DNA of 64,000 bases from Desulfobulbaceae bacterium (lineage in GTDB: Bacteria; Desulfobacterota; Desulfobulbia; Desulfobulbales; Desulfocapsaceae). The stretch covers positions 1-64,000 of the forward strand of contig JAGXHG010000020.1 of the NCBI GenBank assembly GCA_024636345.1, given 5' to 3'. Numbering within the stretch: the stretch's first letter is position 1; each line of letters begins with the position of its first letter. Under the pieces are notes generated by a model. That model was not told where the DNA came from. It searched no databases and worked only from the letters and a program-made list of their open reading frames with translations. A program made the position numbers and the translations under genes. Shown here one piece after another: positions 39,992-61,381 of this stretch.

Positions 39992-41218
39992 TCAATTTGC
40001 CTTTTTCCGAAGATATGTTGGGGTCTCCAGATAATCCTCATTCCAAGGCCGCGATTCTTTCTGGCTACGTCCGACCTCTTTACGGGACGAGGAAACACCG
40101 AGATTATCAAAACCTTCAAAATTAGATTGCAGCAGAGGGGTGACAAAAGTTGGCCGCGGGTTGGTAGGAGCCGGTGCGGCAGGGGTCTCTTGCATAGAAG
40201 CAACCTTCACTGTCTTACGAGGTTCATCCATCAAGGTGATCGGCTCATTTTTTTTGACTACATTGCCTATTCCTGTTGCAATAACAGTAACACGCAATTC
40301 ATCACCAAGGGTTTCATCATAAAGCACTCCCAGAACCACCTTGGCATCCTCATCCACCTTACTTTGAATGAGAGCCGATACCTCCATATATTCAGCCAGA
40401 GTCAAACTCTCTTGTGTTGCCGAAACATTGATAATTAAGCCGCGGGCACCATCTATCCCCACATCTTCAAGAAGTTGATTATCAATGGCCCGCTTGGCCG
40501 CCTCGGTGGCCCTGTTTTCGCCAACGGCAGCGCCGGACCCCATGATGGCAGGCCCCACTTCCCGCATGACTGTGCGCAGATCTGCAAAATCAGCATTAAT
40601 CATTCCCGGCACATTGATCAGGTCAGTGATCCCCTTAACCGCCTGTAACAGAACAAGATCGGCCATAACGAGCATGTCGGCAAGTCTGGTATTTTTCTGC
40701 ATCAGAGAGAGAAGCCGATCATTGGGAACAGTAATGATCGTATCCGCATACTTCCGCAGTTCTTCCCAACCTGCTTCGGCATTGCGCATCCGGGACTTAC
40801 CTTCAAAATGAAACGGTTTGGTCACCACTGCTACAGTGAGCGCACCCATCTCCTTACTCACTTTGGCTACAACGGGGGCAGCACCTGTTCCGGTACCACC
40901 GCCAAGCCCGGCTGCAACAAAGACCATATCACTGCCTTTCAGAGCCTTCTTGAGTTCCTCGAGTGATTCATGAGCGGCCTGGGCACCAATATCCGGATCA
41001 GTACCTGCCCCCAACCCTTTGGTGATACTGGGCCCGATCTGCAGACAGATATCCGCAAGAGACTGGTTCAGGGCCTGCTTATCCGTATTGGCCACAATAA
41101 ACTCAACACCCTGCAGCTTATTGTTAACCATGGTGTTGATGGCATTCCCACCGCCCCCACCGACACCAATAACCTTTACCACTGCAACACCTTCTGTTTC
41201 CGCCATTCTAAACGGCAT
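39992..41218 (-). CDS. ftsZ: cell division GTPase FtsZ
   Basis: 408 aa. Tubulin-type GTP-binding loops: [15 protein letters not shown] (T1), [20 protein letters not shown] (T4), and the T7 loop with [11 protein letters not shown]. The C-terminal linker is about 70 residues and ends in [11 protein letters not shown], which corresponds to the conserved tail that binds FtsA and other partners. It polymerises into the cytokinetic ring at the membrane. It is the last dcw gene, 119 bases after ftsA. AGGGGTGAG precedes the ATG. All GTPase features look intact, unlike the degenerate FtsI-like protein upstream. Confidence 0.98.
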
Positions 41219-41337: not shown

Positions 41338-42609
41338 TCACATGATTTTTTTCATCAACATCTTCATGCGCCCGAACATCGAAGAATCACCACTTATTCT
41401 CTGCACCCGATGCTTACGACCATACATGACCAGACCGACAGCAGTCGTGCAGCGCGGGGTATGAACCTCTTCAACCAGCCCTCCAATCTTCACCGGATAT
41501 CCGATTCGTACCGGCAGATCAAATATCTGTTCGGCAAGATCCACCAGATTAGCCAGCAAAGCTGTTCCACCAGTAATTACTACCCCGCCGTGGATCTTGT
41601 TTTTTTTCCCTGAATGAATAAGTTCCTGGTTAACCATCTCCAGGATTTCCACAATACGGGCCTGCAAAATATCCACAAGGACCTTCTGGGTCACCTTACG
41701 TGGTTCCCGATCGCCTACGGTCGGCACATCAACCACGTGATTCGGTTTAATCAATGAGGCGATAGCACTGCCATAATCCTCCTTTAAGCGCTCAGCCTCC
41801 TGGAGTGGCGTCCGCAATCCCACCGACAGGTCGTTGGTCAGGTTATGTCCACCAAGACCTATCTCACAGGTATGCCTGATAGTCCCGTCGCAGAAGACCG
41901 CAAGATCGGTGGTACCGCCTCCGATATCGACAAGGGCCACCCCCAGCTCCATTTCATCGGCACTGAGTACGGCATAGGCTGAGGCGATGGATTCCAGCAC
42001 CATATCCAACACCTCCAAGCCTGCTTTCCGACAACAGGTATAGAGATTATGCACGGCGGCCATATCAGCGGTCACAATATGCACATTTGTGACAAGACGG
42101 ACACCGGTCATTCCCAAAGGGTTCTGAATTCCAGTATGATCATCTACCATATACTCCTGAGGCAGGACATGAATAATCTGCTGATTTTCAGAGATCTTCA
42201 CGGTCTTGGCCGCCACAATCACATCTTCAACATCCGCTTCTTTGATCTCTCTGCCGTTAATGGCCAGGATTCCTGGACTGTTAAACCCTTTAATATGATT
42301 ACCGGCAATTCCCACATAGACAGTATGCAGTTCGCATCCGGCCGCTTCTTCCGCCTGCTCCACGGCCTGCCGTATAGACTTTACGGTTGACTCGATATTG
42401 ACCACAATCCCTTTTTTCAACCCCACTGAGGGCGCAGTACCAACACCGATAATGTCCACCCCATCATCGAATACCTCGCCCACGACGCAGCATATCTTCG
42501 TGGTTCCAATATCGAGCCCAGCCACGACCTCACCTGGTGCCCGTCTCTCAGGAGCCTGCTCCACGTCAACCACTGGTACTCTATCACTCATTTCATTTAT
42601 TTCATTCAT
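41338..42609 (-). CDS. ftsA: cell division protein FtsA
   Basis: 423 aa, actin-like: phosphate-1 AGLDIGTTKICCVVGEV (about residues 30-46), phosphate-2 LVDIGGGTTDLAVF, adenosine motif GVVITGGTALLANL. The 1C domain region is present between. The C-terminus, MFGRMKMLMKKIM, is a short basic amphipathic helix that would anchor FtsZ to the membrane. It lies between ftsQ and ftsZ as in most bacteria. The first residues MNEINEMSDR offer two in-frame ATGs. Confidence 0.96.
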   Translation of the reverse strand: MNEINEMSDRVPVVDVEQAPERRAPGEVVAGLDIGTTKICCVVGEVFDDGVDIIGVGTAPSVGLKKGIVVNIESTVKSIRQAVEQAEEAAGCELHTVYVGIAGNHIKGFNSPGILAINGREIKEADVEDVIVAAKTVKISENQQIIHVLPQEYMVDDHTGIQNPLGMTGVRLVTNVHIVTADMAAVHNLYTCCRKAGLEVLDMVLESIASAYAVLSADEMELGVALVDIGGGTTDLAVFCDGTIRHTCEIGLGGHNLTNDLSVGLRTPLQEAERLKEDYGSAIASLIKPNHVVDVPTVGDREPRKVTQKVLVDILQARIVEILEMVNQELIHSGKKNKIHGGVVITGGTALLANLVDLAEQIFDLPVRIGYPVKIGGLVEEVHTPRCTTAVGLVMYGRKHRVQRISGDSSMFGRMKMLMKKIM

Positions 42610-42615
42610 CAGCTT

Positions 42616-43668
42616 TCAACCCGATCCGCTGTGTGCCACCAGCACCTTATTCTCCAAATAATCCATACGGATATACGCAACATCTGCAATGGTCATTCCC
42701 TGCTCTGTTTCTTTATACAAAACCTCCAGCACCCTTTTCAAACGACTGTATTTCGTTCTGACAGCACCGAAACCAAAATAAATGGGAAAGGGGTAATCAG
42801 CCAGATAGATGGTCATCCCCGCATCTCGGTCAACATGGATCTCAGAAAGATTCTGGAACGGTAAATTAGGATTATTCTGTCTGACAAGTTTGAGCAAGGC
42901 CAATGCCTCACTGATCATCTCCGGCCGACCTCCATCGCTACTTCCGCCATCCTTGTCTCGCACGGCATTAGACCGCCCCTGGCCGTAATTTCCCTTTGCC
43001 TCAAGGCCGGTTATAACCGGAAGATCCATGTCCTGACCCGGCTCAACCGGCGCAAACACAACTCCGCTCTTATCCAAATAAAAAAACTGCCTGCCGCCAG
43101 GGACATCCTGAGTAATCAAAGCCTCAGCCGCATATTCCTTAATAGAGACTATAACCACATCGGGCCAGTCACGCGTAACCTCTACCGCCGCTATCCATGG
43201 GTGCGCTTTGAGAATGGCCGCAATATGTTCCGGATTGACCCTGACCAGACTGGCTTGGTACCTGATGCCTGTAAGTTCACGAATCATGGCCGGAGAGGTC
43301 TTCCGGCAACCGTTAATGCTAATTTCCTGAATCTTGAAAATGTTCATGCCTGACACAGCATTCAACAACGGTGAATAGAGCAGGAACACTAACAGTACGA
43401 CAAAAGCCAGAAGACATACCGAAATAAGCCCCCTCGGCGTTTTCCTTTTTGCCACAACAGGCACCCGCTTCAAGTCCTTACGTTTGGACGATCTCTGAAA
43501 CCGTGCTCGTAGGCTGCTGACTATCCCGCCACGTTTCTGATTTTGAACAGCAGACCTTGAGGTAAATACAGGTTGATTCCCACGGCCCGCAATACCACCA
43601 CGAACACTTCTGTTTCTCTTCTTAGGTAAGCGAAAGAGAGATCCTATATTTTTCAGAGAGTTCAACAC
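42616..43668 (-). CDS. ftsQ: cell division protein FtsQ
   Basis: 350 aa from the GTG at 43668, which has GAAGGG about nine bases upstream; the frame is open to 43740 inside murB. A basic cytoplasmic tail is followed by one membrane segment (SVCLLAFVVLLVFLLYSPLL) and a POTRA domain (IQEISINGCRKTSPAMIREL, AHPWIAAVEVTRDWPDVVIV), then the beta domain. FtsQ links the early and late divisome through FtsB/FtsL. It is intact, so the divisome scaffold is kept. Confidence 0.9.
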   Translation of the reverse strand: MLNSLKNIGSLFRLPKKRNRSVRGGIAGRGNQPVFTSRSAVQNQKRGGIVSSLRARFQRSSKRKDLKRVPVVAKRKTPRGLISVCLLAFVVLLVFLLYSPLLNAVSGMNIFKIQEISINGCRKTSPAMIRELTGIRYQASLVRVNPEHIAAILKAHPWIAAVEVTRDWPDVVIVSIKEYAAEALITQDVPGGRQFFYLDKSGVVFAPVEPGQDMDLPVITGLEAKGNYGQGRSNAVRDKDGGSSDGGRPEMISEALALLKLVRQNNPNLPFQNLSEIHVDRDAGMTIYLADYPFPIYFGFGAVRTKYSRLKRVLEVLYKETEQGMTIADVAYIRMDYLENKVLVAHSGSG

Positions 43669-43702
43669 TTTTTTTAGCCCTTCACCATACGTCAACAAAG
43701 AT

Positions 43703-44635
43703 TCAGAGAAAATGAACTTCCGGTTCAAGCACAACTCCACTGTCCTCCTGGACCTTGAGCCGCACTTTTTCCATCAACGCCAAGACATCGGCAGCCGTAG
43801 CCCCACCGCTATTCACCAGAAAATTAGCATGAACGGGTGACACCATGGCGCCTCCAACCCTGAGCCCCTTCAGACCACTGGCCTCTATAAGGCGACCTGC
43901 TGCGTCTCCTTCCGGATTTTTAAAAAAAGATCCGGCATTGGGCTCTCCCTTAGGTTGCTTCATCCTGCGCTTTGCACGATACGACTGACAGAGGTTTCGT
44001 ACCTGTTCCTGATCCGCCACCACACAGTATAATTCCACCCCCACCACCACCCTATCTTTTTCTGTACGATAATGGTCATGCCAGGTTCGATAGCCAAATT
44101 TGAGCTCTGCTCGCGGCAGAGTACAGACTTGACCTGATGAGCTGACACACGTGACGGAAGCAAGGACCTCAGCCAGTTCTCGCCCCCAGGCCCCGGCATT
44201 CATGATCACTGCGCCCCCAATCGTCCCTGGAATTCCAGCCGCAAATTCGACTCCCGAAAGGCCTTGATCCACGTACCAGTCAACAAGACGGGTAAGGCTG
44301 CATGCGGCTCCAGCCTGAATGACACCCCCGCCCTTCCCTGCTCCATCTCTACGGGTAATAGAAGTAAATCCTTTGCCCAAGATAAGGACAACCCCGTCAA
44401 ATCCGGTATCACTCACCAACAGGTTGGTTCCCCGACCAATAACACGCCACTCGATCTTCTGCTTCTTGAAAAACACAAGTAATTTTTGAAGCTCAACAAT
44501 GCTCTCGACCGTTATCAAGGCTGCAGCAGGACCACCTATAGCAAAGGAGGTATAACCTTTCAATGGGCAATCCCATAGTACAGGGCTGCTTACCAGCGAT
44601 ACCAGCTCCTTCTTCAGTTCACTATCCATACCCAC
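43703..44635 (-). CDS. murB: UDP-N-acetylenolpyruvoylglucosamine reductase
   Basis: 310 aa. FAD-binding segments YTSFAIGGPAAALI and GRGTNLLVSDTGFDGVVL, AAGIPGTIGGAVIMNAGAWG, the catalytic Ser in EPNAGSFFKNP, and the C-terminal Glu in LEPEVHFL. It is MurB type I/IIb-like and reduces UDP-GlcNAc-enolpyruvate to UDP-MurNAc with NADPH in the cytoplasm. It starts with GTG immediately after the murC stop codon. Confidence 0.96.
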   Translation of the reverse strand: MGMDSELKKELVSLVSSPVLWDCPLKGYTSFAIGGPAAALITVESIVELQKLLVFFKKQKIEWRVIGRGTNLLVSDTGFDGVVLILGKGFTSITRRDGAGKGGGVIQAGAACSLTRLVDWYVDQGLSGVEFAAGIPGTIGGAVIMNAGAWGRELAEVLASVTCVSSSGQVCTLPRAELKFGYRTWHDHYRTEKDRVVVGVELYCVVADQEQVRNLCQSYRAKRRMKQPKGEPNAGSFFKNPEGDAAGRLIEASGLKGLRVGGAMVSPVHANFLVNSGGATAADVLALMEKVRLKVQEDSGVVLEPEVHFL

Positions 44636-46024: not shown

Positions 46025-47239
46025 TCATTTGGTTATCAGTTCCAAACAAACATCGACTATCCTTTCAGCGGCATCAGGCCGTGCCATGGACTGCATGGCC
46101 TCGGCCATCTCCTGCAACCGTCCAGGACTGCTGACAAGTGCAGCCAGGGCCTCTGCCAGTTTCCTGCCCGTCAGTTCCCGCTCCACTAACACCACGGCGC
46201 CACCACTGTCAGCATAATAGCGACCATTCTTATATTGATGGTCATCAGCGGCAAAGGGATAAGGGATCAGCAGCGCAGGTTTTCCAAGAACTGCTAACTC
46301 GGCAAGGGTGGTGGCGCCAGCCCGTGAGACCAGCAAATCACTTTTACCATAAATCTCTGCCATATCGGTAAAAAAAGCTGCCACCGTGGCCTTGATCCCG
46401 GCCTGTTCATAAGCCAACCGCACCATCTCCTGATCCGCGGCGCCTGTCTGGTGAATAACCTCTATCCCCGGTGGCAGGATCTTGCCATATTTGGTCAAGA
46501 CATCCACCATCAGTTCATTGACCCGGTGCGCTCCCAGACTGCCTCCCAGGATCAGAATCCTTACTTTATCACCGATTTTCCTGGGTGGTCGCTCTTCATC
46601 CATCCCTGGAGCGAGCGACACGGGGACATCCTTGGCCTGCGGTCGCTCTTCATCCGTCCCTGGAGCGAGCGACACGTCGCCATCCTTGGCCTGCGGCTTC
46701 CCGACCAGTTCCAGGATCTGACGACGTACAGGATTACCGGTCAGCACCGTTTTTCCTGCCGGGAAAAAGTCCTCACTGCCGGGGAGTGACAGACAGATTC
46801 TTGTGGCCAAGCCACCTAGTTTTCTATTGGCTAGCCCCGGCACCGAATTCTGTTCATGAATCACGGTTGGAAGCCCCAGAATCTTTGCTGCAACCACCAC
46901 CGGTCCCGTCACATAGCCACCGACACCCACCACCAGATGCGGGTGAAAACGGAGGATATGCCAGAGGGCCTCCACCAAGGAGAGCGGAAGTAGAACCAGG
47001 GCCTGAAGCAGAGCCAACGCCCCCTTTCCTTTTAATCCCTGGCAATGGATGGTCCTGGTACTGAAACCATAGTGGGCAAGGCTGCTCTTATCCATCTTCC
47101 GTCGCGTCCCCACAAAAAGTATCTCGGTACCTGGAAGACGACGGCACATGGCCTCTGCCGTGGCAATGGCCGGGAATAGATGTCCCCCGGTCCCGCCACC
47201 GGTAAGCAGCAGCCGTATAGGTTCCTGCCTCTTCCCCAT
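46025..47239 (-). CDS. murG: UDP-GlcNAc:lipid I GlcNAc transferase MurG, with tandem peptide insert
   Basis: 404 aa from the ATG at 47239, whose A is the last base of the murD stop (TGATG). Glycine-rich loop 1 LLTGGGTGGHLFPAIATAEA, VGVGGYVTGPVVVAAKILG, HEQNSVPGLANR, then loop 3 LILGGSLGAHRVNEL and SRAGATTLAELAVLGKPALL. It makes lipid II on the inner face of the membrane. Between the two domains (residues about 183-217) there is an unusual insert of two near-identical peptides ending SLAPGTDEERP and SLAPGMDEERP, encoded by a 54-bp tandem repeat. The catalytic loops are not disturbed. Normally ftsW separates murD and murG; here the genes touch. Confidence 0.95.
   Translation of the reverse strand: MGKRQEPIRLLLTGGGTGGHLFPAIATAEAMCRRLPGTEILFVGTRRKMDKSSLAHYGFSTRTIHCQGLKGKGALALLQALVLLPLSLVEALWHILRFHPHLVVGVGGYVTGPVVVAAKILGLPTVIHEQNSVPGLANRKLGGLATRICLSLPGSEDFFPAGKTVLTGNPVRRQILELVGKPQAKDGDVSLAPGTDEERPQAKDVPVSLAPGMDEERPPRKIGDKVRILILGGSLGAHRVNELMVDVLTKYGKILPPGIEVIHQTGAADQEMVRLAYEQAGIKATVAAFFTDMAEIYGKSDLLVSRAGATTLAELAVLGKPALLIPYPFAADDHQYKNGRYYADSGGAVVLVERELTGRKLAEALAALVSSPGRLQEMAEAMQSMARPDAAERIVDVCLELITK
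46587..46694. repeat. 54-bp tandem repeat (two copies) within murG
   Basis: Two direct copies, 46587-46640 and 46641-46694, differ at only a few bases and keep the reading frame (18 codons each). Each copy contains an internal inverted repeat, GTCGCTC with GAGCGAC. The insertion lies in the linker between MurG domains. Confidence 0.9.
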
Positions 47240-48681
47240 CAGATAGCACCATCCTGACATGCGACAGGTACTGGCTGGTCAATCACCCTCTGTACTGCCG
47301 CCGCAAAGACCCTGCCCCGATGGCCATAATTCTCAAACATATCGAAACTGGCACAGGCAGGAGAAAGCAGCACCGTATCTCCAGCTCTTGCAATGGAAGC
47401 CGCCAGCAGCACCGCCTCTTCCATTGAGCAGGCCGCTCGCAGCTCCGTCACCCCTGCCAGGGCCTGGGCAATCAGCTCTGCGGCCTCACCGATCAGGATC
47501 AGAGTGCGCACCTTCCGAGCGACACTCTCTTGCAGCAGAGTATAATCATCGCCCTTGTCACGACCGCCGGCAATCAGGATCACGTTCCCCTTAAAATTTT
47601 CCAGAGCACTGAGAACAGCTCCGGTATTGGTGGCCTTGGAGTCATCATAATAAGAAACCCCGGCAGCCTTCCCCACTAAGGCCATTCGATGAGCCGCCAC
47701 CTGAAAGGCAGCCAGACCCTGTGCGGTCACCTCCTGGCCACAACCCAAGCTGCGGACCGCAAGGATGGCAGCGGCACTGTTCAATGCGCCGGTTGCTGTA
47801 TCAAGCATGGAACCCGCAAGGTCATAGCACTCTTCGCGTCCTTGCCACAAAAGCATAACCCTATGATCTTCAATCCGCGCCTGACAGTCCTGGTCATGCC
47901 CAAAAAGCAGCTGCCGCTGTCCCCCACCAAGGCCAGGCAACATCTCTCGACAATAGTAATCATCACCGCTGAGAATTGCCGTGTCACTCTGGCCCTGCCC
48001 GGAAAAAATCTTCATCTTGGCCGCTACATAGCAATCCATGCTGCCGTGACGGTCCAGATGATCCGGAGTCACATTAAGGAGGATCGCCACATCGGCTTTA
48101 AAGTCGCCTGCTGCCTCCAACTGAAAACTTGACAGTTCAAGAACAAGCACATCAACATCTTCAGGATTATTGAGATAATCAAAAAGTGATGTTCCAATAT
48201 TGCCACCGACAAAAACCTTTTTCCCGGCCCCTTGCAGCAACTCGCCAATCAGGGCAGTGACAGTGGTCTTACCGTTGGTGCCGGTGATTGCAACTACCGG
48301 TTTGTTGATGAGCGATGCAGCCATAGCCAGTTCACCCAGCACCGGAATTTTAAGGGCTCGAAGCTGCTGCAGAATCTCCAGATCCTGCCTGATTCCAGGA
48401 CTGACCAAAATTTTATCAGCCTGTCTGAGAAAGGCCAGGCTATGACCTCCACATTCGTATTCCACCCCATATTCTGCAAGAAAGGCCAAATCAGTTGCCG
48501 GCAACAGATGAGCGTCCCTGGCATCAGACACCAACACCCTCACTCCGTGTAAAGCCAGATAACGTACCGCCGACCGGCCTGAGACTCCCAGCCCCATCAC
48601 CGCGACACAGGGCATGGACGTTCCCGGGATAGATATAGAGGGGGCATGACTGCCGAGTGCTTTGTTAACTTGCCTGGTCAT
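47239..48681 (-). CDS. murD: UDP-N-acetylmuramoyl-L-alanine:D-glutamate ligase
   Basis: 480 aa from the ATG at 48681, overlapping the mraY stop. Rossmann part VAVMGLGVSGRSAVRYLALH, P-loop VAITGTNGKTTVTALIGEL, LLNVTPDHLDRHGSM, YYDDSKATNTGAVLSAL, LIAGGRDKGDDY and LLSPACASFDMFENYGHRG match MurD. It adds D-Glu. The stop codon is shared with the start of murG, leaving no space for ftsW. Confidence 0.97.
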   Translation of the reverse strand: MTRQVNKALGSHAPSISIPGTSMPCVAVMGLGVSGRSAVRYLALHGVRVLVSDARDAHLLPATDLAFLAEYGVEYECGGHSLAFLRQADKILVSPGIRQDLEILQQLRALKIPVLGELAMAASLINKPVVAITGTNGKTTVTALIGELLQGAGKKVFVGGNIGTSLFDYLNNPEDVDVLVLELSSFQLEAAGDFKADVAILLNVTPDHLDRHGSMDCYVAAKMKIFSGQGQSDTAILSGDDYYCREMLPGLGGGQRQLLFGHDQDCQARIEDHRVMLLWQGREECYDLAGSMLDTATGALNSAAAILAVRSLGCGQEVTAQGLAAFQVAAHRMALVGKAAGVSYYDDSKATNTGAVLSALENFKGNVILIAGGRDKGDDYTLLQESVARKVRTLILIGEAAELIAQALAGVTELRAACSMEEAVLLAASIARAGDTVLLSPACASFDMFENYGHRGRVFAAAVQRVIDQPVPVACQDGAI

Positions 48682-49838: not shown

Positions 49839-52800
49839 CTACAAACTCTCCTGCAACTGTTCTACCACATTTTCAAGGCGCATCCCCCTTGAACCTTTGA
49901 CCAGCAGCCAGTCACCAGCCTGTAACTGACGTGCGGCCAGAAGCTCTTCAATCCAGGTGACCACATCCTTCTTCTCCTGAAAAACCCTGATCCGCTGACT
50001 GTCCATCCCTGCCATTCTCGCCCCCGTAGCAGTCTCTGCCGCAAAACTGCCGATCAAGGCCAGATAATCAAGGAGCTTACCTGCCGCATACCCTCCCACT
50101 TCCTGATGGGCCTCCGCGCTGGTTGGTCCCAGTTCCAGCATATCTCCCAGGATGGCCACCCGCCTTCCTTTACCCTGCTGAGCAAGGGTCGCAAGACCTG
50201 CCCGCATTGAAGCCGGATTGGCATTATAAGTATCATTGAGAATATACAAATCTCCCTTGCCTTTGACAATCTGCATTCGTTTATCAGTTGGCTTGAATAC
50301 GCTAAGCCCTGCCCCGATATCTCCTATACCGAGGCCTGCGGCATGGGCAATAGCCGCTGCAGCCAAGGCATTGGAGACATTATGAACACCCGGAACATGC
50401 AAGGTCACAGAGATCGTCTCCAAGGCAATATGAAGGACAAAGGTCTGGGCACTGCTTCCCACATGCCCTAAGTCAGAAGCCCAGACCTGAGGTCTGTGAC
50501 GCATACCTTCTTCACCTGCTGCATAAAAAACCTTTTTCTGCGAATACTTTTCAGCACATCTCCGCACATGGGGATCATCCAGATTAACCACCAGGGTACT
50601 GTCTTCACCACTTCCGGCAAAGAGCTCTTCCTTGGCTCGAGCAACCCCTTCGATGGAGTGCAACCCCTCAAGATGCGCGGCATGGACATTGACAATACAG
50701 GCGATATCAGGGTCAGCAATACGGACAAGCCTGTCAATCTCACCTGGCCGGTTCATCCCCATCTCCAGAATAACAGCTCTGTGGCCAGGATTCATGGGCA
50801 AGAGAGAGAGGGGTAATCCGATAAGATTATTAAAATTCCCTCTGGTCTTCAACACCTGATCAAAAGACCCCTGAGTCCCTGAATTCAACCCCTGCCAATG
50901 CTGTTCAAAGATCGCCGCAGCCATCTCCTTGACCGTCGTCTTGCCACAACTACCGGTAATCCCCACCACCAACGGCCCACTGATCGCCTTCATCACCTGC
51001 CGCCGATATGCGGCCAGATCACCCAAGGCCTGTAAAGTATCATCCACAAACAGACAGGGAATGGCAGGAAGCACCTCTAAAGGAGTTTCCCGGCGAATCA
51101 CAAGACATCCTGCACCTGCAGAGGCCACCTCTTTCAGAAAATCATGACCGTCAAACCTCTCTCCGGCCAAGGCCACAAAGATATCACCCGCTACAACTTT
51201 CCGGCTGTCGGTGACAACTGATCCCAGATCAGTTACTCCCCTCCTCTCTCCGATCAGCTCACCGTGAACAGCGAGACGAAGATTTTCAACCCTCCAGCTG
51301 GTCAGTCCTTTTTTGGCCTCAAGACTATCATCAAAGAAACACCTACCATCCCGCCCAAGCTGATATCGTTCATGTCCTTTCCCCGCAATAAGCACAATAT
51401 CTTCAACCGTTGCCGCAGCAATGGCCAGGGATATCGCCTGGGCACGATCATGAAGCACCAGAAATCCCTTTTCATCTCCGGCCGAAACCATAAGCCAGGA
51501 AGGTTCCCGTTCTTCCAGATCCGTCATGCGGACACCGGTGACAATCTGGGCTACTATCTCCCGGGGTGATTCACTCCGGGGATTATCGTCGGTCACCAGT
51601 ACCACATCGCTGCAGCGACCGGCGATCTCACCCATGATGGCCCGTTTCCCCTTGTCCCGATCACCGCCGCAGCCAAAGACACAGATCAATCTCCGATGCG
51701 GAAGGCGGGAAAGAGTTTCTAAGACCTTTTCCAAAGCATCCGGGGTATGAGCATAATCAACAAACACTGCTGGCCGGAAGTGCCTTTCCTGTTCTGCCGC
51801 CATTATCCGCTGCAGGCGTCCAGGCGCCCCGGAGGCCTGCCCCAACATCATTGACAAAGCTTGGACCTCAACTCCCAGTGCCAGCCCAATTCCCATGACG
51901 GTCAACAGGTTTGCCACATTAAAATCACCCACCAGAGAAGTCGTTACCTGGATTTCATCGCCGGAAGTATGCAGGGCTATGGTGGTGGAATTCAAACCTG
52001 ACTGGACACGCAAAGAAGTGATATCACCGTTCCCGCCACACTGCCACACCTGAGCGCCCTGCGCTTCACACAAGTCAAGCAGTTGTTGCGTCCTTTTTTC
52101 TTCTTCAGGATCACGACCTGCTGTCCGGGTAATAACAGCCTTACCGCTCTTTTTCAGATGATTACGAAACAGGAGGGCCTTGGCGGCAAAATAATCATCC
52201 ATATCCTGATGATAGTCCAGATGGTCACGCGAGAGATTGGTAAAGGCAACCACATCAAATTGCAGATCTCCAAGACGGCGCTGAACCAGGGCGTGGGAGG
52301 AAACCTCCATGATCACATGGGTCACACCGGCATCTGCCATCTGCCGCAGAAGAGACTGGAGCAAGAGTGGTTCAGGAGTCGTGAAAGGAGCTGGAATCTC
52401 GGCATCCTGCCCCTTAGCATCACGATACCGATAGTTAATCGTGCCGATAACCCCAACCGCCAGACCCAGCTGCCGAAGGACACTCTCAAGGAGATAACTG
52501 ACCGTGGTCTTACCATTGGTACCGGTGACTCCAACCAGGGTCAATCCCTGCGCCGGCTGGCCATACAGATTGGCTGCGATCTGCGCATAGGCCAGATGGC
52601 TGTCCGCAACGACAATCATACACTGACTACAATCAGCAAACTGTTCTGGCCTCACCCGACCTTCTTCAAGCACCAATACCGCAGCCCTACTGGCCATCAC
52701 CTGCTCCAGATAGGCATGACCATCAGTCCTACTTCCGGCAAGGGCCACAAACAGCGACCCGGGCTGTATTTTCCGGGAATCAATCGTTACACCAGAGACG

Positions 52801-52925
52801 ATTATTCCTGAGGGCAGCTTTTTACCCCAAAGCGAATAAGTGACAGAAGTCAGAAGCGTCTCAAGCAAATAGCCCTTGCAGCTACACTCTTCAACAATCT
52901 GCTTTTTGGGTCTTACACTATCCAT
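49839..52925 (-). CDS. murE/murF: MurE-MurF fusion ligase
   Basis: 1028 aa in one uninterrupted frame. Residues about 1-510 are MurE: SRKIQPGSLFVALAGSRTDG, P-loop GVTGTNGKTTVSYLLES, NLSRDHLDYHQDMDDYF, and TDDNPRSESPREI, where DNPR marks meso-diaminopimelate specificity. Residues about 540-1028 are MurF: SRKVVAGDIFVALAGERFDG, P-loop GITGSCGKTTVKEMAA, EMGMNRPGEI, DTYNANPASMRAGL and LVKGSRGMRLENVVE. Together they add meso-DAP and then D-Ala-D-Ala to the stem peptide. Both halves keep their key residues. Such fusions are known but uncommon. About 100 bases separate it from the FtsI-like gene. Confidence 0.95.
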   Translation of the reverse strand: MDSVRPKKQIVEECSCKGYLLETLLTSVTYSLWGKKLPSGIIVSGVTIDSRKIQPGSLFVALAGSRTDGHAYLEQVMASRAAVLVLEEGRVRPEQFADCSQCMIVVADSHLAYAQIAANLYGQPAQGLTLVGVTGTNGKTTVSYLLESVLRQLGLAVGVIGTINYRYRDAKGQDAEIPAPFTTPEPLLLQSLLRQMADAGVTHVIMEVSSHALVQRRLGDLQFDVVAFTNLSRDHLDYHQDMDDYFAAKALLFRNHLKKSGKAVITRTAGRDPEEEKRTQQLLDLCEAQGAQVWQCGGNGDITSLRVQSGLNSTTIALHTSGDEIQVTTSLVGDFNVANLLTVMGIGLALGVEVQALSMMLGQASGAPGRLQRIMAAEQERHFRPAVFVDYAHTPDALEKVLETLSRLPHRRLICVFGCGGDRDKGKRAIMGEIAGRCSDVVLVTDDNPRSESPREIVAQIVTGVRMTDLEEREPSWLMVSAGDEKGFLVLHDRAQAISLAIAAATVEDIVLIAGKGHERYQLGRDGRCFFDDSLEAKKGLTSWRVENLRLAVHGELIGERRGVTDLGSVVTDSRKVVAGDIFVALAGERFDGHDFLKEVASAGAGCLVIRRETPLEVLPAIPCLFVDDTLQALGDLAAYRRQVMKAISGPLVVGITGSCGKTTVKEMAAAIFEQHWQGLNSGTQGSFDQVLKTRGNFNNLIGLPLSLLPMNPGHRAVILEMGMNRPGEIDRLVRIADPDIACIVNVHAAHLEGLHSIEGVARAKEELFAGSGEDSTLVVNLDDPHVRRCAEKYSQKKVFYAAGEEGMRHRPQVWASDLGHVGSSAQTFVLHIALETISVTLHVPGVHNVSNALAAAAIAHAAGLGIGDIGAGLSVFKPTDKRMQIVKGKGDLYILNDTYNANPASMRAGLATLAQQGKGRRVAILGDMLELGPTSAEAHQEVGGYAAGKLLDYLALIGSFAAETATGARMAGMDSQRIRVFQEKKDVVTWIEELLAARQLQAGDWLLVKGSRGMRLENVVEQLQESL

Positions 52926-53025: not shown

Positions 53026-55020
53026 TTATTTTCTCAAGGCACCCTTTATTCGTTCAATTTTGTTTTTTATATTACCTTCGCTCATGGGTTGACCGTTCCC
53101 AGTTGCATGATTGTCTACTTGTTCTTTTTTCTTCAAGGTGAGCAGGCACTCTTTCACTCCATCAAGCGATATCCCTGCAGCAGGGCTCTGAGCCACAACA
53201 CGCCCTGTCCCCTGGATCCGCACCTTTACGTTCTTGTCCTGCAGCAAATGCAAGGCCCGCCTCAAACTCATGCCGGAAAGGTCAGGCATGGTTGGATGAT
53301 GCCTCTCAAGCATGGTTTCCAGCCCGACCGGAACTTTTTTCTCTTGTTCCTGCTGGTAATTAATCTCTTTCCTTTCAGACTTAGTCATCATATCAGAAAG
53401 ATTTTTATGAACCTGCTGCAGTGCCACCATCGACGGCAGGATCTTCCCAGCCGGCCCGACAAGATCAAACACATCTTTAGCTGAGGCAATGGACGGTTCC
53501 AGGTATGGCTGACGTACCATCACCATAAGAATCAGTTCCGGTTTATCTGCCGGCAGCAAGGCAAACATCACTCTGGTTCTGATATATTCGCCATTTTTAC
53601 CAACCGGCTGAAAAGAGAGGTCTTGAGCATCAAGAAAAACTGAATCAAGCACCCCCTTATGCCCCTGGGCCTTTAACAATCTCCATGTTTCTACTGTTGC
53701 CGGATGGGATATCAGCGCACGTTCTTCAGCGATCCCATCGTCTCTGGCTCCTACATCTTCAGGACCGCCTTTTCCGTCACCTGGCGCAGAAGATCTGAAA
53801 AAATACTCGCGGGCACCGTTCCTCTCCAGGATGCGATCAAGCACATGCGGCAAGACCTGATGGCCACCATTTAACAGAGAGTTCAACCCAAGAAGTATCT
53901 GCATGGGCGTTGCTTTCAACGGCACGGTTCCCATTTCACTTTCCGGGGCGACAGCTTTTCCTTCAGTCCCGCCAACATCAGGACGAACATCCTCCGTTGA
54001 AAAATCCAGATCCGGCACAGCACTCAAGCCCAACCGCTGCCACAAACGAAATTCACTTCCGCTGTCAACAGATCCTGCCATGATACTCCAAGGGTAGATC
54101 TGTTTCCCCTGTTGCCAATCGGCCTGTAACAAAGCAGAATCGTGAAAAAAATTCCTTATTTTACGAGGAATAACAACAGGTTCAAACAGGATATTGGCAA
54201 GATCCTGTTTCTTATATTGATAAAATAAATTCGGGTCGAAGGAGGGAAAATTTGCACTGGCAACGATGGCACCCGTCTCTGTCTCCATGAGAAGAGTTAC
54301 AATCTCCGCATCCTCATGCACCGTACCAAGCGAAGCCACGTATTTCTCAAGAAAGTCCTGTATTTTCAGATCGATGGTCAAGACAAGATGTTGACCACTG
54401 ATACCAGTCTTATAATGGCCAGCCAAATCGATATGGGGAAAATCATCCCGACTGATACTGGCCTGATCAAGGAGACGATTATAATAATGCTCCACACCGG
54501 CCAATCCCATATTCCGATCTGCAAAACCAATTACATGGGCGGCAATACTCTTATACGGATAATAACGAACCTGTTCCCGATGCAGAAAGACACCCGAAAG
54601 ATGAAGATCCGCCACTGCCTTTTCTTCTTCCAGGCTGATGTCTTTTGCCAGCCAGATCCGCTGTGCATCCTTATCCAAAAGGGCCAGCAACTCTTGCTCA
54701 TTCAAACCCAGAACTGTGGCAAGCTGCCCGGCACTGCCATGCACATCTTCAAGCTCTCTGGGTCTTACATAGAGAGAAACCCGGTCAAGAGACAAGGCAA
54801 GTTCCTTGAAGTTCCTGTCAAAAATCGTCCCGCGCCCATTTTTGTTCTTATCTGTCGCCTTCTCCTGCCCGGAAAACATCTTGCTGGCAAAGTCTGTAAT
54901 CTCCTGCTTATACAAAACAGTACCAGTTACAACTCCTGCGACGACAACCAGGGCCATACCTAAAACCGCCAACCCGCTTCGCCCGCTCTTTTTTCCCCTC
55001 CGACGCGACTGGATGACCAT
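53026..55020 (-). CDS. ftsI: FtsI/PBP2-like protein without transpeptidase catalytic motifs, with PASTA domain
   Basis: 664 aa. One membrane anchor (about 17-37), a class B PBP pedestal with RGTIFDRNFKELALSLDRVS (63-82) and YYPYKSIAAHVIGFADRNMG (153-172), and the start of the transpeptidase fold with VLTIDLKIQ and METETGAIVASANFPSFDPN (245-264). Where EPGSTFK should be, the sequence reads FEPVVIPRKIRNFF (279-292): the nucleophile Ser and its SxxK Lys are missing. No SxN follows, the stretch to GLS is only about 45 residues, and the KTG position reads VGKNGEYIRTRVMFALLP (473-490). A C-terminal PASTA domain (577-630, MPDLSGMSLRRALHLLQDKN) is kept. The frame is unbroken and the gene sits in its usual place after ftsL, so it is probably a retained structural divisome protein and not an enzyme. 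Confidence 0.85.
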   Translation of the reverse strand: MVIQSRRRGKKSGRSGLAVLGMALVVVAGVVTGTVLYKQEITDFASKMFSGQEKATDKNKNGRGTIFDRNFKELALSLDRVSLYVRPRELEDVHGSAGQLATVLGLNEQELLALLDKDAQRIWLAKDISLEEEKAVADLHLSGVFLHREQVRYYPYKSIAAHVIGFADRNMGLAGVEHYYNRLLDQASISRDDFPHIDLAGHYKTGISGQHLVLTIDLKIQDFLEKYVASLGTVHEDAEIVTLLMETETGAIVASANFPSFDPNLFYQYKKQDLANILFEPVVIPRKIRNFFHDSALLQADWQQGKQIYPWSIMAGSVDSGSEFRLWQRLGLSAVPDLDFSTEDVRPDVGGTEGKAVAPESEMGTVPLKATPMQILLGLNSLLNGGHQVLPHVLDRILERNGAREYFFRSSAPGDGKGGPEDVGARDDGIAEERALISHPATVETWRLLKAQGHKGVLDSVFLDAQDLSFQPVGKNGEYIRTRVMFALLPADKPELILMVMVRQPYLEPSIASAKDVFDLVGPAGKILPSMVALQQVHKNLSDMMTKSERKEINYQQEQEKKVPVGLETMLERHHPTMPDLSGMSLRRALHLLQDKNVKVRIQGTGRVVAQSPAAGISLDGVKECLLTLKKKEQVDNHATGNGQPMSEGNIKNKIERIKGALRK

Positions 55021-55139: not shown

Positions 55140-55505
55140 CTAAAAGCGGGTAACCTGCTCTTTTCCAGGGACATAGAGAGCGAGCTGACTTGCCGCTATC
55201 TTATTGAGATACTCAGGGGAATAAAGACGGGCTCGCTCAGCCCTGAGCTTAATATGTTCATCCATAAGGACATAACGACCTTTCTCTGCATCCGCTAAGA
55301 CTAAAGCTATCTGATCTGCTGAGGATGACAACCAGACGTTCACCAGAAGAAGCAACGGACAGAAAATGAGCAACACCTTCCCTACAGACATCCACAATAT
55401 TTTCGGACCGAGCAGACCAAGAGCATTTTGCCGCAATTGCTGCTGGCGAATTGATGATGGCATCATGGGACGGCTATATGCTTGAACAGATTGATTGATA
55501 AACAT
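55140..55505 (-). CDS. ftsL: FtsL-like divisome protein
   Basis: 121 aa from the ATG at 55505, with GGAGGAG six bases upstream; the frame extends to 55553 but without a site. A cytoplasmic N-terminus of ~45 residues, one membrane segment (KVLLIFCPLLLLVNVWLS) and a short periplasmic coiled coil (LMDEHIKLRAERARLY) are typical of FtsL. Sequence similarity in this family is low, so position between rsmH and the FtsI-like gene carries weight. FtsL with FtsB and FtsQ normally activates FtsW-FtsI. Confidence 0.75.
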   Translation of the reverse strand: MFINQSVQAYSRPMMPSSIRQQQLRQNALGLLGPKILWMSVGKVLLIFCPLLLLVNVWLSSSADQIALVLADAEKGRYVLMDEHIKLRAERARLYSPEYLNKIAASQLALYVPGKEQVTRF

Positions 55506-55554
55506 AGTATGCTCCTCCATTGATTTCTCAAAAAACATTACGATCAGGTTCAAA

Positions 55555-56457
55555 CTATCTCTTCCTGGCCGCCACTCTTAATCGTGCACTACGCGCCCTG
55601 TAATTTGCCGCGATCTCTGCAGATGTTGGCATTATGGGTTTGGAGGTTAAAATCTCCATCTCACTCTGCTCTCTAAATTTTCTTTTCACCAGCCGATCTT
55701 CCAGAGAATGAAATGATATCACACAAAATATTGCCCCGGATCGAAGCAGTGACGGCGCATCATCAAGAATTCTGGCCAGATTCTCCAACTCGCCATTCAC
55801 TGCGATTCGCAGGGCCTGAAACACCTTGGTGGCCACATGAATTTTATCTGGATGAAAACGCCGCGGGATTGCCCTGGCCACAACAGCGGCCAGTTGCCGA
55901 GAGTTTACAATCTTCTCTGCAAACCGGGACCGTACAATCTCCCGGGCAATGGGTCTGGCCTGTTTTTCATCACCATAATAAAAAAAAATGTCTGCCAGCT
56001 CTTCTTCAGTACATGATGCGAGTAGCGATGCTGCCGTCACTTCCCGCCTGGTATCCATCCGCATATCAAGGGGTTCATCATGCCGAAAGCTGAATCCTCG
56101 CCCCCCTGAATCCAGTTGCAGGGAAGAAAGGCCTATATCAATGAGGATGCCATCTACCTGCTCGACTCCGATCTCTGCCAAACCGGTACTGATCTCAGCA
56201 AAATTACGCCTGACAATGGTCAGACGGTCGCCAAAAGGCTGCAATCTGATCCGACTTCGGGCTATGGCGTCCTCATCCCATTCAAAGGCAATGACCCGAC
56301 CATCAGGTGCAGAGTGGCGCAAAATCGACTCGGTGTGACCGCCAAGACCTAATGTACCATCCACATACAACCCGCCTGAGCGAGGCGCAAGATAATGGAG
56401 TACCTCTGCGGGCAGTACCGAACAATGTACAGCTTCTTCCTGCGGCGCAGGCTCCAT
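55555..56457 (-). CDS. rsmH: 16S rRNA (cytosine1402-N4)-methyltransferase
   Basis: 300 aa from the ATG at 56457, overlapping the mraZ stop (TGATG). Motifs: HCSVLPAEVLHYLAPRSGG, YVDGTLGLGGHTESIL (SAM binding), DGILIDIGLSSLQLDSGGRG, PLDMRMD and CVISFHSLEDRLVKRKF. RsmH methylates C1402 in the ribosomal P site. It is the conserved second gene of the dcw cluster. Confidence 0.97.
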   Translation of the reverse strand: MEPAPQEEAVHCSVLPAEVLHYLAPRSGGLYVDGTLGLGGHTESILRHSAPDGRVIAFEWDEDAIARSRIRLQPFGDRLTIVRRNFAEISTGLAEIGVEQVDGILIDIGLSSLQLDSGGRGFSFRHDEPLDMRMDTRREVTAASLLASCTEEELADIFFYYGDEKQARPIAREIVRSRFAEKIVNSRQLAAVVARAIPRRFHPDKIHVATKVFQALRIAVNGELENLARILDDAPSLLRSGAIFCVISFHSLEDRLVKRKFREQSEMEILTSKPIMPTSAEIAANYRARSARLRVAARKR

Positions 56458-56927
56458 CAGAAAATACCCAATTTGGCCAGGCTTTCGGTATAATCGCCAA
56501 AATTCTCCCGGGTAGCCTGATTCTCCAGCTCCCAAGCCTCTTTGTCCCAGATCTCAACATAGTCCAGCATACCGGTCAGCACCACATCCTTGACTATTCC
56601 GACCTCACTGCGCAGCGAGGGAGGAAGCAACACTCGACCCTGCTTGTCAGGTTGACAGGGAGTGACCCCGGAGACCACCAAACGGATAAAACCGGTCAGG
56701 CCAGGTTGTTCACGGCCATTGGTCAACAACTTATTTTCCAGAATCTCCCACTGAGAGACAGGGAAGACGCGAAGATGGGCGCCCCAACTGGTCACCATCA
56801 ACTCCTCAGAATCATACTGCGCAAGGACGTCCCTGAATCTGCTGGGGACATTCAATCGCCCTTTGATATCAAGCGCATGTTCCGATCTGCCGCGAAATCT
56901 GCTGGTTGTTAAGTTGCTGTTTCCCAT
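56457..56927 (-). CDS. mraZ: transcriptional regulator MraZ
   Basis: 156 aa, with the two SpoVT/AbrB-like halves: EHALDIKGRLNVPSRFRDVL (about 16-35) and PCQPDKQGRVLLPPSLRSEV (about 90-109). MraZ binds repeated boxes in its own promoter and represses the dcw operon; five such blocks at 10-base spacing lie directly upstream (56931-56980). First gene of the operon. Confidence 0.95.
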   Translation of the reverse strand: MGNSNLTTSRFRGRSEHALDIKGRLNVPSRFRDVLAQYDSEELMVTSWGAHLRVFPVSQWEILENKLLTNGREQPGLTGFIRLVVSGVTPCQPDKQGRVLLPPSLRSEVGIVKDVVLTGMLDYVEIWDKEAWELENQATRENFGDYTESLAKLGIF

Positions 56928-57697: not shown

Positions 57698-60600
57698 TTA
57701 ATTTACAATTTTCCAGTACAGATCGAGAATGGTGGGGAGAAGTGGTACCTCCCCAAGTCTTACCATCCCATCCATATACCAAACCCTGTTTTCGCCTGAC
57801 ACATTGTTCCTCCAGAGAATATCGGGCTTAATATCATTGTTAAAATCACCAACGCCTACAATTTCCCAAGTAAGATCAGTTTCTGATGTAGTAGACTCTG
57901 GGGCTCCATTCCTGGTCACTCCGTTCATATACCAAGCTGTTACATCACCTGTTGATGTATTTCTCCAGAGGATGTCAGACTTACCATCTCCGTCAAAGTC
58001 CCCTGTACCCACAATTGTCGCGTCTGGAGTGGCGTCTGTTTCTATCACTCCACTTCCTGCATACAGTATTTTATTCATATACCAAGCCCGGTTCTGGCCC
58101 GTAGTCGCATTTCTCCAGAGAATATCACTTTGACCATCACCATTAAAATCACCTGTACCCACAATTTTCCAATTCTGATCGGCAACAACAGGGACAATGG
58201 GCACTTGCCCAATTCGTATGTCTCCGTCCATATACCAAACCCTATTTGCACCGGTCAAAGTGTTCCTCCACAAGATATCGGGCTTGCTGTCACCATTAAA
58301 GTCACGCCTGCCGACAATATTCCAGTTCTGATCAGGCTCGAATGGAAGGAGTGTTTGTGAGACTGTAGTTATCCCGTCCATAAACCAGGCCATGTTTTTT
58401 CCATCACGGATGTTTCTCCAGAGAATATCCACTTTGGTATTGGGGTTGAGGACAATCGGACGCATCATGTCGCTTTCTTCGTGGCTGAGGATGTGGCAAT
58501 GCCACAAGTACTCATGACCGAAGTTGTACATTATATTGACCGTCGCAGGAGTAAGTGCTTGAGCGGTCACCGGGTCAAGATTCGAAAAGCCAACCGTAGA
58601 TCCTAGAGGAAAGGCCGGGTTAAGTGGTCGAATACTCTCAGGGATAGTAAAGGGAAACGTAAACTGAGCCGGCCTGATAGCCACGATCGTGTCTTCCAGC
58701 GGACTTATCCTGACCGTGTCTTTCCAACCCAACTCATTAGGATCAGGCGGATAAATAAAACCATCCCAGCCAACCCGGTTAAGAACCTGTACATCAGATA
58801 TATGGAAATGCACAGGGTGGGTATCCACTCCATTATGGGTAATCTTCCAAATCTGTACCTGATCCTTAGCTATGATCTCAGTGGGCGGATCAACAAAGTT
58901 TTGCAGGACAAAGGTTTGAATTCCAGCATTGGTAAATGCCAGCTCAAGACCAAGTTTGGCACTCATGCGTCCGAACTCATCAAAAACCTCACCCATCTCA
59001 TCCTGGATAGCCTTAGGCTTCATCGGATAGTGAGAGACTATTGACCCATCAACCCTCATGAAACTCAGAGAGGTATCAGTGATGCGCGACAGTCCCCAAT
59101 TAGGAGCGGTAGCGGGAAAGCTCTTGGCATAAGCGGTGTTGTAAGCAGACTGCCCGACAATGATCGGGTCCTGCCCGGTTGCAAAGACACCAGTCGGTCC
59201 TGCAAATGCCGCCTCCAAAGTGGCCAAGGTCGTTGAATTATAGTCATCAACGGGCGCTGTTCCGCCGGTTCCGGAAACCTTAATCTGCATGATCGTTCGG
59301 GTATTAGGGCCATAGCCGAACGGAGTCGTATTGGCACCACCCATTGATCTGTTGTCAGGAGCGCCCGTGTAGTAATCATAATGGGGGTCGAGTGCCGGCC
59401 ATGGTGCCGGAGCATCATTATAGAGGATCAGGGTTTTACCGGCAAATTTGGAAAAGTCAACAATGATATCCGCCCGTTCCGCAGGTCCCAACATCAGTGT
59501 ACCGCCCCCCTGGTTCTGTTGCAGCACCAATCCGGCAGTGAAGGTTGTCGGATCAATATTCCAATTAATCGGCTGATTAGGCAACAACACCGGAGCTGGC
59601 AAAAAACCGCCTTCAGTTCCGATCTGGATCATGGCTGGACCTCTGGTAGCCGGATCAGGCACCCCACCTTCCCTATCGTCTGCCGGCCAGCCCTCCGGAA
59701 ATCCGGCAGTCGTTACTGCCGGAACCATTTTTACTTCCGTCAACCGTCCCTGAAAGACCCGGCCAGGATCCGCCACATACATCTGCAAATTCCAGAATCG
59801 GTCATGGGCTCCATTCAAAATCCGAAATCGATATTCTTTGGGATCAACCTTCAGTACAGGATAGGCTGTTCCATTGATTAGCGGGGTATCCATGAAAGCC
59901 TCCGCCCCCCACGACGGATTGGGGGTATCGGGCCGCTGCGGCGGCTGACAGAAAAAATTATTGAAGGCACTTGGTTCACAGGTTGAGTCATAATATTCGT
60001 TCGCAACCGGCCCATTAGAGATATTAGTGGTAGGCGGCCAGAACCAGGGGCCATAATGCCATCGACCGTAAGCGTTTATCCCGCTCTCATCTGGATTCCA
60101 TGGATTCTGGGCCGGCATATAGACATGGGGCCACCAGAGGTCTCCGGTTACGGGAAGTGCACCGATGGGGTTCCAAGGAAGAATTGTTCCCGGTTGACTT
60201 CCCCATATCCAGGTCGGGTCCGTTTTGAGAACATACGTGGGTCTCGTTGGAACACCATCTACGAAGGTCTTGTCAACAATGATCAAGGGAATCTCTTCAC
60301 CGGCGACAGCACCAGGAATTGTTCCGGCATCAATAAGAGCCTGTTCGGTAGGATCCTTGATCAAATAGCCGGCTACTCCACCGACATAAACACCAAGACG
60401 GGTAATTCCCCAGCTATGATCATGATAAAACATCATCCTTGCGCTCTGCTGGTTGGTATAGTAATAGGTTTGCGCTCCTGGTCCGGGATTATTTGTCGCA
60501 CCCGCAACTCCGCAGGACGTCTTTCCCGCACAATTTGAGCCAGGATAAGTAACATTTGTGATATGTGTCCCAGCAGCATCAAACCACATATCCGGCACAT

Positions 60601-61318
60601 AAGAGACACTGACACCTTTGGGATAGTCTGTAATTTCGTCCTTTGGAGTAATCCACTGATGGGCGGTTCCATCACTGATCCACGGAGTCCGTCCACCATG
60701 AAGATGGATAACAGACCGATTCTGGGTAAACACGCCATATTTCGTAGTTATCGGTTCCTTCGTCTCTGGATCATAGTCAATCTCAAATTCACCAGAACCC
60801 ATAATACTAGTATCAACCGGGATAAAAAGATCACCGGCGTCACCAGTTGGCAGCGAATTGGTAAACTTGATGCGCACCGCACGGTCCTTGGTACTGACGA
60901 TCAGTGGCCCCAAACTATGAAATTTACTCACCCCAGGTGCTGTCGTATTGGTCTGCCGATAGCCCCGCATTAAGGTGCCCCCAGTATTTACGACTATCGG
61001 TGGCAGATCACTATGCACCTGCTCCCGGTATTGGCCAATTTCGATTTCATAATAATCCGTTCCCGGATAGGTTTCTGTATCTGGAACAGCTACAGGGATA
61101 TACTGTCCGAGATTATTTGCGTTGCCAACATTCAGCCCTGGAAGTCCATCAACAAATTTCCGGAGCGGCGGGCTATTGGCCCAATTAGGTGTATTATAAT
61201 AATCCGGAACACCGCTATCACGGGGTCCGGCCACTGCCTCTCCCTGACCAATTCCTGAGACCTGGACCGCCAATACCGCAAGCATAGCAATCATGGTTGA
61301 AAACCGTTGTCTATTCAT
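57698..61318 (-). CDS. exported multicopper oxidase with C-terminal FG-GAP-like repeats
   Basis: 1206 aa from the ATG at 61318, preceded by GGAGGAAGG. A signal peptide ([20 protein letters not shown]) is followed by three cupredoxin domains. All four copper motifs are present: [42 protein letters not shown] and [17 protein letters not shown], giving the type 1 and trinuclear sites. The layout is that of CotA/bilirubin-oxidase-type enzymes, which oxidise phenols, metals or bilirubin with O2. The last ~260 residues are five FG-GAP/VCBS-like units (for example [38 protein letters not shown]) with DxDxDG-type calcium loops. This repeat tail is unusual for the enzyme and suggests cell-surface display. 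In an anaerobe, metal oxidation or O2 removal are possible roles; substrate unknown. Confidence 0.9.
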
Positions 61319-61381
61319 TCCTTCCTCCACTTATAATAAGAGTGTTTTAGAGGGTATCGGTTATGGTATCACCAATGACGT

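Follow-up and report, generated by a model that had tools for sequence, protein, structure and literature searches.

An FtsI protein without transpeptidase motifs in the FtsW-less order Desulfobulbales

How does a bacterium build its septal wall if the FtsI protein of its dcw cluster has none of the three transpeptidase motifs? The question is raised by a stretch of 64,000 nucleotides (the window) from a Desulfobulbaceae bacterium, whose draft genome comprises 2.96 Mb in 41 contigs and is 83% complete. The dcw cluster lies on the minus strand, in the order mraZ, rsmH, ftsL-like, ftsI, murE-murF fusion, mraY, murD, murG, murC, murB, ftsQ, ftsA, and ftsZ. The names mraZ and murB come from position and similarity, with no domain scan. 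The ftsI gene follows rsmH and ftsL and precedes murE. The ftsL-like gene is weakly recognized, with an NCBIfam ftsL_broad match (E 1.5e-4, 21.7 bits) below the cut-off of 42.45 and no Pfam match. The features discussed here are as follows.

53026..55020, minus strand: ftsI without its catalytic motifs, 664 aa (open reading frame; Pfam PBP_dimer and PASTA; profile alignment; motifs absent)
54898..54966, minus strand: N-terminal hydrophobic stretch, presumed membrane anchor, residues about 19-41 (by eye in the translation)
54391..54837, minus strand: pedestal (PBP_dimer) region, residues 62-210 (Pfam PBP_dimer over residues 62-167; lowest dN/dS in most pairs)
53461..54390, minus strand: eroded transpeptidase half, residues 211-520 (partial Pfam match; S-to-KTG identity collapsed across the order)
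54160..54186, minus strand: nucleophile site FEPVVIPRK, residues 279-287, replacing FEPGSxxK (translation and alignment)
53575..53604, minus strand: VGKNGEYIRT, residues 473-482, originally taken as the former KTG site (translation; aligned column without KTG)
53131..53295, minus strand: PASTA domain, residues 576-630 (Pfam PASTA over residues 577-616, 2.4e-9)
55140..55553, minus strand: ftsL-like gene, 137 aa (position between rsmH and ftsI; weak NCBIfam match)
55555..56535, minus strand: rsmH (mraW) (Pfam Methyltransf_5)
49839..52925, minus strand: murE-murF fusion, 1028 aa, one open reading frame (Pfam, two sets of Mur ligase domains)
47239..47260, no strand: murD-murG junction, 22-base overlap of open reading frames (the ftsW slot in FtsW-bearing relatives)
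42616..43740, minus strand: ftsQ (Pfam POTRA_1 and FtsQ_DivIB_C)
41338..42609, minus strand: ftsA (Pfam)
39992..41218, minus strand: ftsZ (Pfam)

The FtsI protein and its lost motifs

The ftsI gene is a single unbroken frame on the minus strand, and the plus-strand frame is interrupted by stops. Pfam recognizes the PBP_dimer domain (1.1e-11) and the PASTA domain above their cut-offs. The transpeptidase model also matches above its cut-off (27.4 bits versus 22.1), but only over positions 3 to 38 of its 299, corresponding to residues 242-281. The intact frame of 664 residues with its pedestal, fold remnants, and PASTA domain was therefore as originally described. We aligned the family (f1) with nine active FtsI proteins. 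The profile-profile match extends over residues 19-635 of a 668-residue open frame, with an E value of 8e-67. The translation reads FEPVVIPRK and VGKNGEYIRT at the two sites where the original prediction had placed the losses, and the window protein lacks SxxK, SxN, and KTG in the alignment, in agreement with that prediction.

The motif alignment contains 114 rows, of which 107 are from the order (window included) and 7 are from outgroup genomes without ftsW, plus the nine active controls. It omits seven order rows that are truncated and ten outgroup proteins that are short. None of the 114 rows has SxxK at the aligned site, and none has KTG; all three motifs are present in 9/9 controls. An SxN-like triplet is kept in four rows (L036, L047, L134, and L186), and the window protein is not among them. 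The canonical string is still legible, with substitutions, in several families; for example, L036 reads NRAVVDPVFPGGIGRLFRCAAAYE and an active relative reads NRAISDVFEPGSMFKAFLAAAVLE. Similar patterns occur elsewhere in some proteins: a PxSxxK-like pattern in L040 (inside PASTA), L135, and L141, and KSGT or RSGT in L048, L126, and L191. These matches miss the catalytic sites in the alignment, from which L141 is absent. An AlphaFold model of FtsI from 10 sequences had a mean pLDDT of 31, and the placement of the sites rests on the sequence profiles. By its sequence, the window protein is FtsI in descent and dcw place and lacks the motifs of the active enzyme. It is a true FtsI orthologue that has lost its transpeptidase site.

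The loss extends through the order Desulfobulbales, to which we assigned the window via its named relatives. These relatives (11 loci) are MAGs labelled Desulfocapsa, Desulfocapsaceae, Desulfobulbaceae, or, loosely, Deltaproteobacteria or Proteobacteria, and Desulfocapsaceae is a family within the order. The protein was matched in 54 of 58 related genomes and in all 63 further genomes of the order. At E 1e-3, it was unmatched in G006, G010, and G012, which are 55-63% complete, and in G023, a genome of the same family that is 93% complete. We read the protein in 113 of the 117 matching genomes (unread in G022, G041, G050, and G100), drawing on all 15 families of the order that were sampled. The 113 genomes gave 114 protein rows, as one gene is represented by two pieces. 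None of these 114 order rows shows PGSxxK at the nucleophile position or KTG at its own, some truncated rows not extending over both positions. The nucleophile motif is gone in 113/113 genomes, the window genome included.

FtsW, RodA-PBP2, and class A PBPs in the order

The murD and murG frames of the window overlap by 22 bases, at the point where ftsW-bearing relatives carry a SEDS gene. No SEDS gene is present at any of the 13 murD-murG junctions read in the order, including that of the window. Among 146 order genomes, exactly one SEDS match was found in 135, none in 6, and two or three partial pieces in 5. Two full-length SEDS matches occur in none of the 146, and an ftsW gene elsewhere in the genome was therefore rejected. 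A PBP2 with KTG stands directly before the SEDS gene in 20/20 order regions read, which come from several families (with the S..K pattern in 19), and 10 further SEDS loci agree on KTG in the adjoining PBP2. This arrangement identifies the surviving SEDS protein as RodA.

The same 146 genomes were searched for class B PBPs. Exactly two PBP_dimer matches were found in 132 genomes, one in 13, zero in 1, and three in none. We rejected a second active class B PBP as a stand-in for FtsI, because no genome has more than two matches and the other match is PBP2 where read. Together with the missing ftsW, this supports the suggestion in the original prediction that septal cross-linking is done otherwise; the second, active class B PBP that it proposed to look for was not found in the 146 genomes beyond PBP2 where read. 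It is probable that the order has lost the standard pair of septal-wall enzymes and that its cells divide in another way.

The window's own draft, at 83% completeness, gave no match for SEDS/RodA or PBP2 and no MreB-grade match. The PBP2 and MreB-grade matches are present in its near relative G016, so the mre-mrd locus of the window draft probably lies in an assembly gap. In a separate locus, L081 5590-6785, from the single-contig genome G047, rodA is divided between two frames that overlap, reflecting either a sequencing error or decay.

Matches to PF00912, which are class A PBPs or single-domain glycosyltransferases, number at least two in 48 of 49 order genomes tested and at least one in 29/29 outgroup genomes. 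In the window's own draft, three class A PBPs were identified, each having S..K and KTG. Among the matches listed, one class A PBP stands out by its unusually long frame of 1079-1238 aa; it occurs in at least 41 of the 49 order genomes and in 0 of the 29 outgroup genomes (e.g., G000:C5, on L266). This long-frame protein is a candidate septal synthase.

Two genomes of order family f12 lack any SEDS match. The first, G073, is 99% complete in 100 contigs (loci L139, L257, L264, and L265). It has no PBP2, and its sole PBP_dimer match is the motif-less FtsI. It also has no MreB-grade match; the best hit, at 2.4e-15, falls on the FtsA gene of its dcw cluster. Its four PF00905 matches are three class A PBPs and the motif-less FtsI, and the two class A PBPs that we read both have S..K and KTG. 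G073 is therefore a candidate for a bacterium whose only known wall polymerases are class A PBPs, if the assembly is right. The second, G156 (2.0 Mb, 90% complete), lacks not only SEDS but also PF00912 class A PBP, PF00905, and MreB-grade matches. It keeps a complete dcw cluster with the motif-less FtsI (loci L255, L256, and L151). Its congeners G066 and G144 have 4.8-5.4 Mb. G156 is possibly a reduced bacterium without wall polymerization, or possibly an incomplete assembly.

Loss of FtsW and of the FtsI motifs across the phylum

By a hand count, two or three SEDS matches were found in about 174 of 237 genomes outside the order, one in about 58, and none in 5. We fetched the dcw regions of 26 outgroup genomes, a non-random sample that was enriched for one-SEDS genomes. 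In one of them (L208), the contig ends before murD, and FtsI is intact. In 8 of the other 25 loci, murD and murG are separated by a SEDS gene, and FtsI has the complete set of three motifs in all 8. L172 belongs to this group; its genome gave a single SEDS match, so FtsW was the SEDS protein kept there. The remaining 17 loci have no SEDS gene, and none of them has SxxK or KTG in the FtsI slot. For L160, whose contig ends after murD, the absence of ftsW was deduced from the single SEDS match in the genome. The single SEDS gene adjoins PBP2 in the five FtsW-less outgroup genomes read.

The ftsI slot of the other FtsW-less families holds progressively shorter proteins (L158 and L163-L171). The open frame has 643 aa in f31; 523-569 aa in f75, f96, f91, f79, and f69; 412-457 aa in f43 and f78; 334-340 aa in f42; and 248-329 aa in f38 and f68. 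Four proteins represent f38 and f68: PASTA is recognized above cut-off in L167 and L170 and below it in L166, and nothing recognizable is left in L171.

In a FastTree phylogeny of eight dcw proteins, f38 and f68 lie among FtsW-keeping families, apart from the order. We carried out an AU test on 25 taxa with the eight proteins concatenated (2706 columns) and trees from fast searches. A single FtsW-less clade was rejected (p 5e-5), so the FtsW/FtsI pair was taken apart on two or more occasions. A single loss shared by the order and f31, f75, f96, f69, f43, f79, f91, f42, and f78 is compatible with the test (p 0.26). The FtsW-positive L174 (f52) falls inside that clade in both unconstrained trees, and further losses are therefore possible. 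Thus, loss of FtsW and loss of the FtsI motifs go together, and they have done so at least two independent times in the phylum.

Possible roles of the motif-less FtsI

We lean towards a model in which the protein is a non-catalytic part of the divisome in a lineage without FtsW, a class A PBP makes the septal wall, and RodA-PBP2 serves elongation. In this model, FtsI has been kept as a membrane-anchored component after both its transpeptidase site and its partner polymerase were lost. The pedestal may dock on FtsQ/FtsL, and the PASTA domain may meet the nascent wall or other partners. The protein may also have a part in bringing in or regulating a bifunctional class A PBP. We infer the order of the losses, the docking partners, the function of PASTA, and the class A PBP as the septal enzyme; a scaffold role in divisome assembly is the best reading of the protein itself. 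Precedent and one draft genome, G073, suggest class A PBPs as the makers of the septum. Because they are the only known wall polymerases in G073, septation by class A PBPs is the economical model for the order. G156, which has the motif-less FtsI and no class A PBP match, is not explained by a scaffold for class A PBPs. Furthermore, the f38 and f68 proteins, with PASTA alone or nothing recognizable left, argue that certain FtsW-less lineages can do without the pedestal. G023 and the three less complete drafts in which the protein was unmatched also weigh against the model, as does the lack of RodA, PBP2, and MreB matches in the window's own draft.

The precedents come from other bacteria and are cited here from excerpts of the reports. 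In C. difficile, the class A PBP1 is the septal synthase of the divisome, and RodA and PBP2 serve elongation (PMC10693644). PBP3, a class B PBP of C. difficile, forms a complex with PBP1 and stimulates synthesis of the septum by a non-catalytic action (PMC12539705). In B. subtilis, PBP2B serves a structural function that does not depend on its catalysis (PMC5656894), and FtsBLQ represses PBP1b in E. coli (PMC6325244). By analogy, the motif-less FtsI most likely works like the non-catalytic class B PBPs of these systems. Like FtsI/PBP3, the class B PBP of dcw clusters, it has the dcw place, pedestal, PASTA domain, and end-to-end profile match. However, it has lost SxxK, SxN, and KTG, and the order lacks the gene for the FtsW partner. 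As excerpted, the C. difficile divisome resembles that proposed here, in that the canonical FtsW/FtsI pair is absent, RodA-PBP2 is kept, and class A PBPs are present. It differs in that SpoVE and SpoVD of the dcw cluster are kept for sporulation, whereas the order lacks ftsW and has lost the FtsI motifs. Moreover, the septal role reported for the class A PBP1 of C. difficile is a proposed one for the class A PBPs of the order. The structural role that we propose resembles that described in the PBP2B excerpt. However, PBP2B is an active enzyme that was inactivated by laboratory mutation, whereas the loss in the order is natural and lineage-wide. In addition, a class B substitute resembling PBP3 was not found in the 146 genomes of the order.

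Alternatively, RodA-PBP2 might serve both the septum and elongation, with the motif-less FtsI recruiting the Rod pair to the divisome as an adaptor. RodA is the sole SEDS polymerase and PBP2 the sole motif-bearing class B PBP where read in the order, and the pair also persists in the five FtsW-less outgroup genomes read. However, G073 has the motif-less FtsI and yet none of RodA, PBP2, or MreB, and the excerpted report on C. difficile assigns its RodA and PBP2 to elongation. We regard a septal Rod pair as unlikely, though it is the rival to be taken most seriously.

Could the gene instead be a relic on its way out, surviving by its place in the operon after its function has gone? The shrinking proteins of the FtsW-less outgroup lineages, from 643 to 248 aa, form the kind of series that this would produce, and the catalytic half of FtsI has lost most of its identity. 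The pattern of selection in the order speaks against it. The frames are unbroken throughout the order, and in eight within-genus pairs, dN/dS of the whole gene is 0.16-0.29, indicating purifying selection. The pedestal has values of 0.06-0.21, the lowest of any region in most pairs. Short windows with low dS are noisy; in one pair, for example, the first 61 residues give a value of 1.57.

We also compared the identity of 15 order representatives with that of the 9 active FtsI proteins; because divergence is not the same in the two sets, the values that follow are more safely read by contrasting domains inside one set. The pedestal is equally conserved in both (0.384 in the order versus 0.359), and PASTA is more conserved in the order (0.453 versus 0.308). 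In contrast, identity has collapsed between S and KTG (0.203 versus 0.428) and after KTG (0.183 versus 0.431). A relic is thus quite improbable, and the original argument from the unbroken frame against simple decay holds. The missing motifs, the purifying selection within the genus, and the order-wide occurrence strongly support the pseudoenzyme that had been predicted.

Residues 351-520 of the eroded half have a dN/dS of 0.26-0.33, so constraint persists, and there may be some further role in this part. The retained constraint is also what might be expected of a cryptic enzyme performing transpeptidation with another nucleophile or geometry. However, the alignment offers no conserved replacement: counting the gap, 15 states occur in the nucleophile column of the 114 rows, the most frequent being G with 28 rows, and the KTG strand likewise shows no conservation. 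We rejected a cryptic alternative nucleophile on this basis, and consider a cryptic enzyme very improbable. Finally, a sequencing or assembly artefact, to which a draft in 41 contigs at 83% completeness might be prone, has practically no probability as an account of the finding, because 112 other genomes of the order, including single-contig assemblies, show the same loss, which excludes a frameshift or the misassembly that the original prediction had allowed for.

The order is a natural case among diderms, repeated at least once more in the phylum, in which the polymerase is gone and a motif-less FtsI is under selection. Here evolution, rather than laboratory mutation, would have separated the structural role of FtsI from its catalysis, and division by class A PBPs can be put to a second natural test in these bacteria. 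The model predicts that their septation is insensitive to FtsI-directed beta-lactams. More tentatively, and somewhat short of probable in our judgement, loss of FtsW may repeatedly free FtsI from catalysis and make of it a non-enzymatic protein that senses the wall through PASTA and activates class A PBPs. In that case, the whole order, which by taxonomy includes the cable bacteria, would divide by a non-SEDS septal synthase, and a few members, such as G073, would be bacteria without any SEDS polymerase that live on class A PBPs alone.

Part of the gene content was reported before. In four Desulfobulbaceae, namely two cable bacteria and two Desulfobulbus species, ftsW, ftsN, and zipA are absent and rodA and PBP2 are present, according to the available parts of the report (PMC7873302). 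Those parts do not name ftsI among the missing genes, nor do they mention the lost FtsI active site found here. We found no description of an FtsI without its motifs in these bacteria in the open-licence PMC literature, as judged from titles and the openings of abstracts, and a report may exist elsewhere. The absence of ftsW is thus already published for the four species, and the motif-less FtsI appears to be unreported. Four findings go beyond the original prediction: the missing ftsW, the spread through the whole order, the independent second case, and a genome in which no synthases other than class A PBPs were found.

Two further features of the window were seen by eye. MurG (46025-47260, minus strand) has a near-tandem repeat in the middle of the protein, KPQAKDGDVSLAPGTDEERPQAKDVPVSLAPGMDEERPP. 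At 57698-61330, also on the minus strand, an open reading frame of 1210 aa resembles a multicopper oxidase and has FG-GAP-like repeats at its C terminus.
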